Assembly (NCBI RefSeq): GCF_000174015.1
Contig: NZ_ACFE01000002.1
Span: 62,001 to 126,000 of the forward strand
From: Lancefieldella rimae ATCC 49626
Lineage (GTDB): Bacteria > Actinomycetota > Coriobacteriia > Coriobacteriales > Atopobiaceae
Direction: 5' to 3'
DNA: 64,000 nucleotides
Shown here: one piece after another, positions 56,215 to 62,249 of the stretch
Numbering within the stretch: position 1 is the stretch's first letter
Layout: each line of letters begins with the position of its first letter
Made by a program: the position numbers and the translations under genes
The notes under the pieces: generated by a model
What the model saw: the letters and a program-made list of their open reading frames with translations, nothing else
Told to the model about the DNA's origin: nothing
The model's database searches: none

Positions 56215-56349
56215 CTAAACGGTAAGGCGCTTGCGCCCCTTAAGGCGGCGACGAGCGAGCACGGCACGACCGTTCTTGGTTGCCATACGTGCACGAAAAC
56301 CATGGGTGGTAGCGCGCTTGCGCTTATTAGGCTGGTAGGTACGCTTCAT
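56215..56349 (-). CDS. rpmH: 50S ribosomal protein L34
   Basis: A 44-residue protein, [20 protein letters not shown] and on to KGRKRLTV, standard for L34. The upstream frame to 56430 is not part of the gene. It is the first gene of the leftward operon that starts at the origin. Confidence 0.98.
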
Positions 56350-56396
56350 AACTATTCCCTCCCGGACGGGTACTATATCGAGCAAAAAGCTTTCAA

Positions 56397-56426
56397 ATTG
56401 TACGCGCCTTATACCAAATTTGTCAA
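56397..56426 (-). promoter_or_regulatory. Strong promoter for the rpmH operon
   Basis: On the minus strand TTGACA (56426-56421) and TACAAT (56402-56397) with an 18-base spacer, about 48 bases from the rpmH start. It is close to the sigma-70 consensus. Confidence 0.85.
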
Positions 56427-56429
56427 TCA

Positions 56430-56700
56430 AATTGCAGATACTTATAAAGGTTTGCTTTTACTTTCGAAGAAAGATTGATACTTGTGTTGTAGAAGCCGTC
56501 TTTCATTTCATCAATATATATCTGAATGAAATGTTTCTTTTCGTTCAAAATGATATGAAATGATACTATTATTTCAGCGCTTTTCTATTTGTATTATAGT
56601 TTTCAACATATTGTTTATTATTTGTTGAAAACTGTTATTCATTTGAAATGTTGTGAAAAGTTTTTAACATAATGTTGAAAACTTGTTGAAAAGGAAGTTT
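56430..56700. other. Replication origin region: A/T-rich with repeats and DnaA boxes
   Basis: About 270 A/T-rich bases. ATGAAATG occurs three times (56504-56511 inverted, 56526-56533, 56555-56562). TTTTCAACA or its complement occurs at 56600-56608, 56623-56631, 56673-56681 and 56684-56692, plus a TTTTTAACA variant at 56661-56669 and TTGTGAAAA at 56651-56659. Genes diverge on both sides, parS sites lie 3 kb away, and dnaA follows. No TTATCCACA was found. This is the most likely oriC. Confidence 0.85.
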
Positions 56701-56701
56701 T

Positions 56702-57583
56702 GTGGTGCGGGATTTTTATCCGTTTGTAGAAGAATCACCAACCGATGTTTCTTCTACAAACAACAAAGACAACATGGAAGAACTTACTGTTCGTTATGAA
56801 ACGCGTATTGCCGTATACGACGATGTTGCCGCCGCTCCCCGTGTTGTTGTAATTGAACCCACAGAAATTCGTTCATATCTTGAAGAAATCGTTCAAGCGG
56901 TTAACCGCCTCTCTCACGAGCAAGGTGGTCAAATTCCTTTTATGGTAATGCGTGAGATTGTAGAAAACTTTATCCACGCACATTTTGCGTCTCCTACCAT
57001 TACCATCCTTGACCACGGTAACACCATTCGTTTTTCAGATAGGGGACCGGGTATTAAAGAAAAGGAACTTGCTCTTCAATATGGGACTTCAAGTGCCACT
57101 GAATCAATGAAACACTATATTAGAGGCGTTGGCTCAGGCCTTCCATATGCTCAGCAATACATGATTGATAAAGGTGGGAGTCTTACCATTGAAGATAACA
57201 TCTCAGGAGGAACCGTTGTTACTATTTCAACACGATCTGCCTCTGATGCCCACACACAAACACGTCCTTCAACAGAAAAGATAGAGATCTTTTCAAGAGA
57301 AACTTCTTCTCAAGGTTCTTTTAAACAAGACAGCTCTTCTCGTGATAAAAACCCAGATACATCACACTTTTCTCTTTCTAAAATAGAAATCTCACCAAGA
57401 GGACAAAAGGTCTTTGCATATCTCTCAGAGCATGAACTTGTTGGTCCAACAGAACTTGTTCGTATGTATGATCTTTCAATTCCAACCTGGTCTCGTGAAC
57501 TGAAAAGTTTAGAAGAGATTGGCCTTATTAAAAAGATAGGCCAAAAGTACCAGCTTACGCAGGCCGGACTTGCTTTGCTTTAG
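56702..57583 (+). CDS. GHKL ATPase with C-terminal winged helix, next to dnaA
   Basis: A 293-residue protein. Residues about 50-180 form a Bergerat ATP-binding fold: N box REIVENFIHAHF (84-95), G1 DRGPG (113-117), G2 GVGSG (142-146). No HisKA or receiver domain is present, so it is not an ordinary sensor kinase. A disordered Ser/Thr-rich linker (about 180-225) leads to a winged-helix-like domain (about 229-293; VGPTELVRMYDLSIPTWSRE, LGLIKKIG-like wing). GTG start after AAGGAAG; ATG at 56774 is an alternative. DnaA-type boxes flank it on both sides, suggesting a role in origin control. I do not recognise a described protein. Confidence 0.8.
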   Translation: MVRDFYPFVEESPTDVSSTNNKDNMEELTVRYETRIAVYDDVAAAPRVVVIEPTEIRSYLEEIVQAVNRLSHEQGGQIPFMVMREIVENFIHAHFASPTITILDHGNTIRFSDRGPGIKEKELALQYGTSSATESMKHYIRGVGSGLPYAQQYMIDKGGSLTIEDNISGGTVVTISTRSASDAHTQTRPSTEKIEIFSRETSSQGSFKQDSSSRDKNPDTSHFSLSKIEISPRGQKVFAYLSEHELVGPTELVRMYDLSIPTWSRELKSLEEIGLIKKIGQKYQLTQAGLALL

Positions 57584-57609
57584 GTTCTTTTATCAAGAAT
57601 CTGCGAAAG

Positions 57610-57649
57610 TTTTCAACAATTCCACAAAACGAAGGCGAAGTTTTCAACA
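57610..57649. other. DnaA-box pair between the GHKL gene and dnaA
   Basis: TTTTCAACA at 57610-57618 and 57641-57649, period 31 (three helical turns), with ATTCCACAA between. It lies just before dnaA and would let DnaA autoregulate. Confidence 0.8.
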
Positions 57650-57698
57650 ATCCAGAGTATACTAAATGACCCTTTTAACACTTGTCGTTTGGTGGGTA

Positions 57699-59261
57699 AT
57701 GGACATTTCGCTTGAATCAAGTGCGACAGAGTTGTGGCAGGATACCATTGATCTTCTTATTCAAGAGGATCAACCGGCTCCTTTTGTTGCTATGTTACAG
57801 AGCTGCATCCCTTTATCTCTTGAGGGGTCGGTTTTGTCTGTCAAAACAAACCTGCGAGGTGCCTATAACAACATTGTAAAAAATCAACCCGTTGTAGAAC
57901 ATTATCTCTCCCAAGCCGCTTTTAGGGATACAAAGCTTTCTATTAGCTTTGTAAAACAAACAAAAGATTCGCCGGTACAAGAAAAAAGTGAAAAGACCTC
58001 TTTTAACCCTTTTACTTCAGTTGTATCTCCTGAAGAGATACATAGTTGGAATGAATCTTCTCACCAAAATACACAGACCTCTCATACCACCCAGAGAAAG
58101 CATCTTTCTAAAAAGAACATAATAGATGCAAAAAAGAGGAACAACCCTCTTATTGAGAAGAAAATTACTGATGAAACGTCAAAACTCACGTTTGATAGAT
58201 TTGTTGTTGGTGAAGAGAATGAATTTGCTTTTGAACAAGCTCTTCGTGTAGCAAACGATGAAAAAGGGAAAGGAAACCCTCTTTTTATCTATGGGAGTAG
58301 TGGTCTTGGTAAGACACATCTTCTGCGCTCAATACAAAACTACATTATAGAGAACGACCCAAGCCGGCTTTGTGTCTATAAAAACGCCACTTCTTTCATT
58401 GACGACTACACGCGCGCCATGAGAAACAAAGCTGATGGCGCACCTCAAATTCTCACTGAAGCCTATCAAGACATTGATGTTCTAATCATTGACGATGTAC
58501 AAAAACTTGCCGGAAAAGCGGGTACATTAAGTTTCTTTTTTGATACGTTTAACTCTCTTAAAACAGACGGGAAACAGATTGTTCTCGCTGCTGATAGAAC
58601 CCCTTCTGATCTTGGACTTGGAGCCGAGGGATTTGATGAGCGTATTACTACCAGAGTGAGCTCCGGTATTGTTATTGGTATAGAACAACCAAGTTATGAA
58701 ATGAAAGTAAACCTCATTAACACGTTTTGTGAGCGCATTCACAACGAAGCTGTTACAGAAGGGCTTACATATCTACAAGGCACGCTTTCTGAAGAAACAA
58801 TTCAATATATGGCCGAGAGAAGCGGTCAAAGCATCCGTGTTATTGAAGGATTCTGTAATCGTTGTGTCGGCGAACAAACGCGCGCAGAAGAAAAGGGTAA
58901 ATCCATTACTCGTGACGATATCGATAAGATTGCCTCAACCGTTTGGCCTAAAGAGACAAAAATCATTACGGTTACTAAGATTCAACAGGCTGTAACTTCT
59001 CGATATGGTATTAGCCATGATGATTTGGTCGGTCAAAAACGCAGTCAAGACATAGCAGAAGCACGTCATGTTGCAATTTGGCTCTCTCGAAATCTTTGCG
59101 ATCTCACGCTTGGCGACATAGGCAAGAACTTTGGAGGTCGTTCTCATGCAACCGTTAAACATAGTATTAAGGTTGTTGATGATTGGCAGAGAGAAAATAA
59201 ACAACTTTATGACCGTGTGTTTCATCTTCAAAGAGACATCACCGAAGGAAAGAGTGAGTAA
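57699..59261 (+). CDS. dnaA: Replication initiator DnaA
   Basis: About 520 residues from MDISLESSATELWQDTIDLL. Domain I (1-85), a long polar domain II (85-165), AAA+ domain III with GSSGLGKTHLL, VLIIDDVQKLAG and an arginine-finger region, and domain IV (about 410-500). The DnaA signature, usually GGRDHTTV, reads GGRSHATV (Ser482, Ala484 in this numbering). GGTGGGTA lies before ATG at 57699; ATG at 57666 is in frame but lacks a good ribosome site. It binds the variant boxes around it. Confidence 0.97.
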   Translation: MDISLESSATELWQDTIDLLIQEDQPAPFVAMLQSCIPLSLEGSVLSVKTNLRGAYNNIVKNQPVVEHYLSQAAFRDTKLSISFVKQTKDSPVQEKSEKTSFNPFTSVVSPEEIHSWNESSHQNTQTSHTTQRKHLSKKNIIDAKKRNNPLIEKKITDETSKLTFDRFVVGEENEFAFEQALRVANDEKGKGNPLFIYGSSGLGKTHLLRSIQNYIIENDPSRLCVYKNATSFIDDYTRAMRNKADGAPQILTEAYQDIDVLIIDDVQKLAGKAGTLSFFFDTFNSLKTDGKQIVLAADRTPSDLGLGAEGFDERITTRVSSGIVIGIEQPSYEMKVNLINTFCERIHNEAVTEGLTYLQGTLSEETIQYMAERSGQSIRVIEGFCNRCVGEQTRAEEKGKSITRDDIDKIASTVWPKETKIITVTKIQQAVTSRYGISHDDLVGQKRSQDIAEARHVAIWLSRNLCDLTLGDIGKNFGGRSHATVKHSIKVVDDWQRENKQLYDRVFHLQRDITEGKSE

Positions 59262-59283
59262 TGAAGAAAACATGTTGGAAGTA

Positions 59284-59302
59284 TGTTGAAAGATGTTGAA
59301 AA
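59284..59302. other. DnaA-box-like repeats after dnaA
   Basis: TGTTGAAAG at 59284-59292 and TGTTGAAAA at 59294-59302, with a TGTTGGAAG copy at 59273 just before; an ATTTCAACA follows at about 59425. The 229-base dnaA-dnaN gap contains nothing else recognised. Confidence 0.6.
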
Positions 59303-60600: not shown

Positions 60601-61686
60601 GTGGGACTTATCGTCAACAACATATCGCTTGTAAATTTCCGCAACTTTCGGATGTTGAGTGTAGATTTTTCACAATCTATAACGATTCTTGTTGGACATA
60701 ATGCCGTAGGGAAAACAAACACAATAGAAGCACTTCAAATGCTTACTGCAGGGTATTCATTTAGAAAACCTACTCCAGTACAGCTTATGCTTGAAGGGGA
60801 GAAACAAAGTAAGATTCATGCCCATCTCACGGGAGACGGTCGGGTTATTGATCTTTCTTGTACAATTTCTTCCTTACGCCGACAGTATGAGAAAAATGGA
60901 AAGAAGTGTCATGCAACTGACATTCCAGGAGATCTTATGTCGGTTCTCTTTACGCCTGATGACCTTGCGTGCATTAAGAGAAGTGCCTCATATCGAAGGG
61001 GAGAGATTGATGACTTTGGAAAGCAGGCAAACAAAACGTACGCAAAAGTGCTTGCGGCATATTTGAGAAGTATTGAACAAAGAAATAGACTCTTAAAGGA
61101 AAATGTTGTTGACTTTAGTTTACTTAGTGCATGGGATACCTCAGTTGCTCTTGGTGGAGCAACGCTGCTTTGTGCGCGTCTAAAATTGTTTAGAAGACTT
61201 TCAGCCAAAACAAGTGAGATTTATAAACAAATCAGTGGGGGAGAAGACCTTGTTTTGCGGTACGAGTCGAGCATAGGAGAGATATCGGCTGATCAGACAA
61301 AAGAGGAATTACTGGATAAGTTCCTTTCATCTCTTAAGGATGCACATGGTGTTGATGAAAGACGTCAACAAACCACTGTTGGTCCTCATAGAGACGATAT
61401 TGTCTTTTTAATTAACGGAAAAGACGCTCGGATGTATGGATCTCAAGGTCAACAACGCTCCGTTATTCTCGCCCTTAAGATGGCAGAGGTTTTAGTATCA
61501 GAAGAGATTCTTGGTACAAAGCCACTTTTGCTTCTTGATGATGTCATGTCTGAACTTGATAAAAGTCGTCGTGAAGCAATCATGAATTTTACGTTTGGAG
61601 ATATTCAAACCGTTATTACCACAACTAATCTAGGATATTTTTCTCCGGATATGGTTGATGTTGCAAAAGTGGTGAGTTTTGAATGA
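60601..61686 (+). CDS. recF: DNA replication/repair protein RecF
   Basis: A 361-residue SMC-like ATPase that loads RecA at gaps. Walker A GHNAVGKTNTIEAL (about 31-44), signature GSQGQQRS (about 280), Walker B LLLLDDVMSELD. GTG start; the N-terminus MGLIVNNISLVNFRNFRML is standard. Its end overlaps the next gene by four bases. Confidence 0.96.
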   Translation: MGLIVNNISLVNFRNFRMLSVDFSQSITILVGHNAVGKTNTIEALQMLTAGYSFRKPTPVQLMLEGEKQSKIHAHLTGDGRVIDLSCTISSLRRQYEKNGKKCHATDIPGDLMSVLFTPDDLACIKRSASYRRGEIDDFGKQANKTYAKVLAAYLRSIEQRNRLLKENVVDFSLLSAWDTSVALGGATLLCARLKLFRRLSAKTSEIYKQISGGEDLVLRYESSIGEISADQTKEELLDKFLSSLKDAHGVDERRQQTTVGPHRDDIVFLINGKDARMYGSQGQQRSVILALKMAEVLVSEEILGTKPLLLLDDVMSELDKSRREAIMNFTFGDIQTVITTTNLGYFSPDMVDVAKVVSFE

Positions 61687-62249
61687 ATGCGCACCATGTG
61701 TCTTATAAAAAAGATGGTTTTCAAAATGAAGAGCAAGAGAAAAAAAGAGGGGGCGAGAAGAACCTTTCTTCTCTTTTAACTTCTTATTTTGAAAAGACTC
61801 GTGTTACGGATACCTCAAGCACTAACCACGCAGCCCTTCTCGCGTGGTACTGTGTGGCAGGGATCGCTGAGAAAGAGCATACAACAGGCGTATTTGTTGT
61901 ACCGGCAAAATACAACCAGTCGCCGAAACTAATTGTGTATGTTGATTCAAATTCGCTGCGTATCGATTGTATGGCTCGTCGAGAGGTATATCTGCAAAGG
62001 TTTGCCACTGTTGGTTATGAGTTTTCATGTATTGAATTTAAACTTTCGAAGTATAAAAAGAAGCAAATAACAGCCGATGTTCGTCTTGTGGCCGAGCCAG
62101 AGAAAAAATACTATACTGCTCCGGAAAGCGAACTGACCCAAGACCAAAGAGAAACAATTGAAAGTATTGTAAAAATACTTCCCGAGTCATATCGTGAGGA
62201 AGGATATAAGGCCGTCCTTGCTTCTTTTCTTCGTAGGAAGTGTGAATAG
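61683..62249 (+). CDS. DciA-like (DUF721) helicase operator protein
   Basis: A 188-residue protein. In actinobacteria the gene between recF and gyrB encodes a DUF721/DciA protein that helps load the DnaB helicase when DnaC is absent. The central part (LIVYVDSNSLRIDCMARREV, LQRFA) fits the KH-like DciA fold; the flanks are basic and low-complexity. Sequence similarity is only moderate by eye, so the name rests partly on position. It overlaps recF by four bases. Confidence 0.72.
   Translation: MNAHHVSYKKDGFQNEEQEKKRGGEKNLSSLLTSYFEKTRVTDTSSTNHAALLAWYCVAGIAEKEHTTGVFVVPAKYNQSPKLIVYVDSNSLRIDCMARREVYLQRFATVGYEFSCIEFKLSKYKKKQITADVRLVAEPEKKYYTAPESELTQDQRETIESIVKILPESYREEGYKAVLASFLRRKCE

Follow-up and report, generated by a model that had tools for sequence, protein, structure and literature searches.

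Which function might be served by a gene that joins an ATP-binding domain to a DNA-binding domain and lies immediately upstream of dnaA? The question is raised by an open reading frame (ORF) at 56702-57583 (+) of the window, i.e., the whole stretch of 64,000 nucleotides that was analyzed, which begins with GTG, encodes 293 amino acids, and was confirmed as real. Its divergent upstream neighbor is rpmH (56215-56430, − strand), as supported by tblastn synteny in relatives, and its downstream neighbor is dnaA (57666-59261, + strand), as recognized by Bac_DnaA (1.4e-44) and Bac_DnaA_C (1.9e-22). Since the DnaA proteins of relatives align only from residue 11-12 of the translation starting at 57666, dnaA more probably starts with the ATG at 57699; the gap between the two genes is 82 bp with the former start and about 115 bp with the latter. 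A sequence-only reading had described the ORF as a GHKL protein with a winged helix embedded in the origin, possibly a regulator of initiation or of dnaA expression. The ORF itself, its HATPase_c match, and orthologues beside dnaA throughout the class and the phylum identify it as the upstream partner of dnaA.

Domain organization and nearest structural relatives

The GHKL (Bergerat-fold) ATP-binding domain spans residues 34-176 (56801-57229, + strand, as for all features within the gene). Residues 81-176 match Pfam HATPase_c with an E-value of 2.7e-9, which passes the curated cut-off, and the same profile was found in 46/46 family members at E up to 0.01. The N, G1, and G2 boxes are intact, as first described, and their residues are near-invariant in an alignment of 98 relatives: the N box, E85-x-x-E88-N89 (56954-56968), retains N89 in 98/98 and E85 in 93/98; the G1 box, D113-x-G115-x-G117 (57038-57052), retains D113, G115, and G117 in 98/98; and the G2 box, G142-V-G144-S-G146 (57125-57139), retains G142 and G146 in 98/98 and G144 in 97/98. 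The boxes and the Bergerat fold place the protein in the GHKL ATPase/kinase superfamily, in which E85 is the probable general base, i.e., the catalytic glutamate of the N box. The sequence-only reading was also right about HisKA: neither this nor any other phosphoacceptor-histidine domain gave a Pfam match in the window protein at E up to 1.

In an AlphaFold model of the window protein, for which 46 relatives were used, confidence is high for residues of about 34-176 (pLDDT mostly 84-98) and 230-293 (pLDDT 90-98) and low for the residues before 34 and for the intervening linker, residues 186-228 (57257-57385; pLDDT about 46-68), the length of which varies strongly between lineages. Residues 230-293 (57389-57580) are predicted to form a winged helix of the MarR/TrmB-like type, i.e., a three-helix HTH with a wing, and the modeled domain matches MarR-type chains with Z scores of 10.5-11.9. 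The window copy remains below the Pfam cut-offs (31.1 vs 35 bits for HVO_A0261_N, with HTH_45 also below), and a relative (L126) passes that of TrmB (36.6 vs 25.6 bits); the winged helix claimed at the outset is thus upheld. Among basic positions of the domain, R265 occurs in 86/98 relatives and K or R at position 282 in 90/98, conservation that is only suggestive as to DNA binding. Related proteins measure 240-516 aa, and no Pfam or NCBIfam model spans the whole protein. In Collinsella-like genomes (L080-L083), with proteins of up to 516 aa, the linker between the GHKL domain and the winged helix is expanded, long, and of low complexity (Q/P-rich in L081). A short N-terminal motif also recurs, M-x-RDFYPFVE in Atopobium-type genomes and MK-x-F-Y/F/L elsewhere (56702-56731 in the window); it precedes the low-confidence stretch and could be a docking peptide.

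The best fold match is DIP2311 of Corynebacterium diphtheriae (PDB 3lmm), with a Z score of 15.2 and 164 residues aligned in the GHKL part, and the Foldseek alignment to 3lmm covers nearly the whole model. We take DIP2311 to be an AlbA_2/Schlafen-type protein with HATPase_c_4 and winged-helix domains (COG2865); the two proteins thus share the order of GHKL domain and winged helix, and the fold match extends over both. Unlike this presumed type, the window protein shows no N-terminal AlbA_2 domain (no Pfam match) and has no room for one, and HATPase_c_4 is likewise without a match to it (E up to 1). Furthermore, its family is linked to dnaA, whereas nothing in the present data ties DIP2311 to that gene. 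The catalytic domains of sensor histidine kinases are likewise matched, by both the HATPase_c profile and the fold; however, the window protein lacks a HisKA or phosphorylatable-histidine domain as well as a sensor, and instead has a probable catalytic glutamate and a putative DNA-binding domain of its own.

A third resemblance, to SpoIIAB and RsbW, gives rise to the main rival explanation, in which the protein would be a GHKL serine/threonine kinase of the SpoIIAB/RsbW or BCKDH type, or a sequestering factor, its target being another protein (possibly DnaA or a sigma factor), while the winged helix would do no more than hold it close to the gene. In its favor, the fold comparison ranks SpoIIAB (Z 11.5 over 127 residues) with the top matches, Foldseek places BCKDH kinase high, HisKA is missing from the window protein as from SpoIIAB and RsbW, and the N box reads E-x3-N, with a glutamate (E85) four residues before N89 in 93/98 relatives, a position at which those kinases and the GHKL ATPases have one as well. 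In addition, the spIIAB model is weakly matched by 6/46 members (best 4.8e-7), the window copy being without a match. Fold similarity within the GHKL group cannot tell kinases from ATPases, however. Moreover, the winged helix, which SpoIIAB and RsbW do not share, is retained in every lineage inspected, including the shortest proteins of 240 aa; neither a STAS nor a sigma-factor gene was seen beside the gene in the window, so that the adjacent partner-switch genes of those systems are missing; and the linkage to dnaA is a further difference. We therefore regard a kinase or sequestering factor as unlikely, although it is the strongest competitor.

Occurrence and linkage to dnaA

Homologues occur in 281/298 Coriobacteriia genomes and in 112/120 sampled genera. 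The GHKL gene and dnaA were located separately in a subset of 80 genomes of the class (75 genera), 66 of which carry both, and in 66/66 the GHKL gene immediately precedes dnaA and shares its strand, so that the arrangement noticed in the window is the rule across Coriobacteriia. Eight of these 66 have the two genes at opposite ends of one contig, an arrangement that we attribute to the opening of a circular chromosome between them. Among the 14 negative genomes, ten are without a dnaA match too, and an assembly gap at oriC is suspected there; many of the genomes surveyed are drafts. The other four have dnaA without an adjacent GHKL gene, and no copy was found elsewhere in these genomes; the gene is thus not indispensable. 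A remnant of the gene or its fusion to DnaA was considered for these four lineages and rejected, as no significant trace was found at the loci.

The whole-genome survey covered Actinomycetota, in which a profile search returned matches at E below 1e-20 in about 20 families outside Coriobacteriia, probably including Rubrobacter; lineage names other than those of two Atopobiaceae records are our own attributions. Of 60 such genomes, 54 show the arrangement of the class, with the GHKL gene immediately ahead of dnaA and in the same orientation: in 49 the two are adjacent on one contig, and in five they occupy opposite ends of contigs that look like closed chromosomes. The other six comprise four in which the genes are split between contigs, the GHKL gene being terminal or nearly so on its contig, and two without a dnaA match. 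Absence from related genomes, which the sequence-only reading held would speak against its proposal, was thus looked for, and the idea survived, with other classes of the phylum also carrying the gene. Relatives on plasmids were restricted to partial, low-identity, histidine-kinase-like matches, and the matches in PHROGs were partial and weak.

This distribution bears on the suggestion that the protein regulates unrelated genes and has inherited its position next to dnaA by accident. Bacteria do preserve certain gene orders around dnaA very stably, and oriC or the dnaA promoter is no more than a putative target of the GHKL protein. Nevertheless, the neighbors of dnaA rearrange over such distances, yet no relocated copy away from dnaA was found in the genomes checked, and many lineages have frames that overlap or almost touch; an accident of position is therefore considered rather improbable. 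The linkage argues for a functional association, while remaining silent on the direction or kind of action.

The history of the gene was traced on a single-gene, midpoint-rooted DnaA tree of 91 loci with and 43 loci without it, which displays 11 presence/absence changes, at least eight of them on supported branches; the bearing lineages do not form one clade. Within the limits set by the rooting and by the use of one gene, this pattern fits ancestral presence in Actinomycetota followed by repeated loss. The median pairwise p-distance is 0.63 for the GHKL protein and 0.64 for DnaA, and a divergence equal to that of DnaA is a sign of strong constraint on the GHKL protein. Co-divergence of the two proteins (Spearman 0.47) was set aside as evidence of interaction, since it follows from shared phylogeny.

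The same survey informs the notion that the GHKL protein replaces the helicase loader DciA. No DciA profile match was obtained in the genome of the window, and three Rubrobacter-like genomes (G308, G336, G347) are without a match at E up to 0.01. In most of the lineages tested, however, DciA co-occurs with the GHKL gene, and a window ORF at 61683-62249 (+) occupies the place of the weak DciA match of a sister genome, so that a replacement of DciA is very improbable. This ORF follows recF and has no Pfam DciA match, and the sister genome (G047) has one at that position with E 4.2e-4; the ORF is probably a strongly diverged DciA. Unlike the three Rubrobacter-like genomes, the other tested lineages outside the class have a DciA match.

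Origin boxes and gene spacing

The cumulative GC skew of the window reaches its minimum at 56-60 kb, and the GHKL gene sits at oriC in this genome. The motif TTTTCAACA occurs nine times in the 64 kb against 0.99 expected, a number reached in 0/100 shuffles, and 7/9 sites fall within 56600-59302: four upstream of the GHKL gene (56600-56608, +; 56623-56631, −; 56673-56681, −; 56684-56692, −), two between the genes (57610-57618, +; 57641-57649, +), and one past dnaA (59294-59302, −). The classical form TTWTNCACA is not enriched (4 vs 5.25 expected in the window), and for this reason TTTTCAACA is only inferred to be a probable DnaA box. Support comes from related lineages of the class, which have TTATCCACA/TTTTCCACA at the corresponding places, so that the boxes of the window look like a shifted form. 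The DnaA of the window and of four further Atopobium-type genomes (L035, L086, L087, L089) carries the recognition motif GGR[S/T]HATV, not GGRDHTTV, and their five origins together contain 15 TTWTCAACA boxes and one TTWTCCACA box. In Atopobium-type genomes, the specificity of DnaA and its box thus appear to have shifted in concert.

Within the upstream cluster, an inverted box pair with a third tandem box (GTTTTTAACA TAA TGTTGAAAAC T TGTTGAAAAG; 56660-56693) is the local form of a phylum-wide element, namely TCCACA-N2/3-TGTGGA, an inverted pair ahead of the GHKL gene after which a third box usually stands. The core pair has a 2-bp spacer in 40 and a 3-bp spacer in six of 93 GHKL-bearing loci, and in 19 and eight, respectively, of 43 loci lacking the gene. 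A private operator, i.e., a dimer site for the winged helix, was accordingly rejected, the core pair being at least as common without the gene, and no operator specific to the GHKL protein was found. The inverted pair is best read as DnaA boxes, and throughout Actinomycetota such DnaA-like pairs, spaced by 2-3 bp, are found repeatedly ahead of dnaA, with or without the GHKL gene.

The claim that the gene lies between box clusters therefore holds for the window genome, whereas the layout of a gene embedded in the origin is local to Atopobium-type lineages. In most lineages, oriC is wholly upstream of the GHKL gene; in families other than Coriobacteriales, it is chiefly the 400-750 bp separating rpmH from the GHKL gene that hold the boxes; and in Rubrobacter-like loci, most boxes (11-17) are downstream of dnaA. 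The genus of the window, with 82 bp and two boxes between the genes, thus departs from the rule, and it is this departure that led to the idea of a gene within the origin. Because the linkage is constant while box placement differs between lineages, the conserved partner is evidently the dnaA gene more than the origin DNA.

Box placement also weighs on a mechanical role, in which a GHKL dimer would form a clamp worked by ATP, after the manner of MutL, GyrB, and Hsp90, that shapes oriC or helps to open it and is not a transcription regulator. Complete GHKL boxes with a probable catalytic glutamate, a match to MutL in sequence searches, and the position of the gene next to oriC in most lineages would be compatible with such a clamp; however, the transducer domain is absent, the linker can be short or as long as about 250 aa and is of low complexity in Collinsella-like proteins, which would suit a tether better than a lever, and the boxes of Rubrobacter-like loci lie mostly away from the gene. 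We consider a clamp improbable.

The spacing of the two genes is usually operon-like, with frames that overlap or all but touch in most lineages. In 64/93 loci, dnaA begins between -30 and +40 bp from the end of the GHKL gene (median 15), and 8/93 loci have the 4-bp overlap typical of coupled frames; start codons of relatives were assigned mechanically, so that single spacings may be off. From this spacing, co-transcription or co-expression of the two genes is predicted. Atopobium-type genomes have about 75-220 bp between the genes, in some cases with boxes, and dnaA may therefore have its own promoter there.

A putative ATP-dependent regulator made with DnaA

Linkage to dnaA that has persisted through deep divergence, a mostly operon-like spacing, intact nucleotide-binding residues, and the winged helix together underlie the reading to which we incline, by a modest preference, that the gene encodes an ancestral DnaA partner, i.e., an ATP-dependent DNA-binding regulator that acts on dnaA transcription or on initiation. 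The GHKL protein would be made together with DnaA, and its GHKL domain would bind ATP and dimerize; two winged helices on a flexible tether would then grip DNA at oriC or the dnaA promoter, and dnaA transcription or the assembly of DnaA at the origin would be tuned by the nucleotide state. Within this scheme, ATP-driven dimerization, the DNA target, and co-transcription are what we infer from the sequence. The link to initiation or dnaA expression in the sequence-only reading is thus well motivated by the conserved adjacency, and binding at the origin, or an effect on initiation, would be a further, presumptive step.

Known regulators of DnaA include Hda, YabA, SeqA, SirA, DiaA, and Soj, mostly from E. 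coli and B. subtilis, and MtrA, AdpA, CtrA, and Spo0A are regulators that bind oriC. The GHKL protein would resemble them in its role in initiation or dnaA control, which in its case alone is a proposal. To our knowledge, none of them is a GHKL-winged-helix protein, and we know of no described initiation regulator with a GHKL module. Neither the domains nor the concept of a regulator at oriC is new; the new part would be a GHKL module in an initiation regulator. Mycobacteria are reported to have no identified homologues of the regulators of DnaA (PMC5720831). No description of this dnaA-linked gene was found in the literature searched, from which subscription journals were largely missing, in agreement with the earlier remark that no system of such layout was known.

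The broader reading is that the family constitutes an undescribed, ancient class of regulators of replication initiation, old in Actinomycetota and made with DnaA, in which an ATP-sensing GHKL switch and a DNA-binding domain are combined in one protein. This reading appears to us evenly balanced, and we judge in the same way its corollary that the class was lost in several lineages, among them well-studied actinomycetes. The unstudied gene beside dnaA may be an overlooked regulator of the timing of chromosome copying. Kept beside dnaA in Coriobacteriia, which include human-gut and oral genera, in what is probably Rubrobacter, and in further lineages, it is a strong candidate for a missing regulator, and if, as is likely, well-studied actinomycetes have lost it, this could account for its having gone unnoticed.
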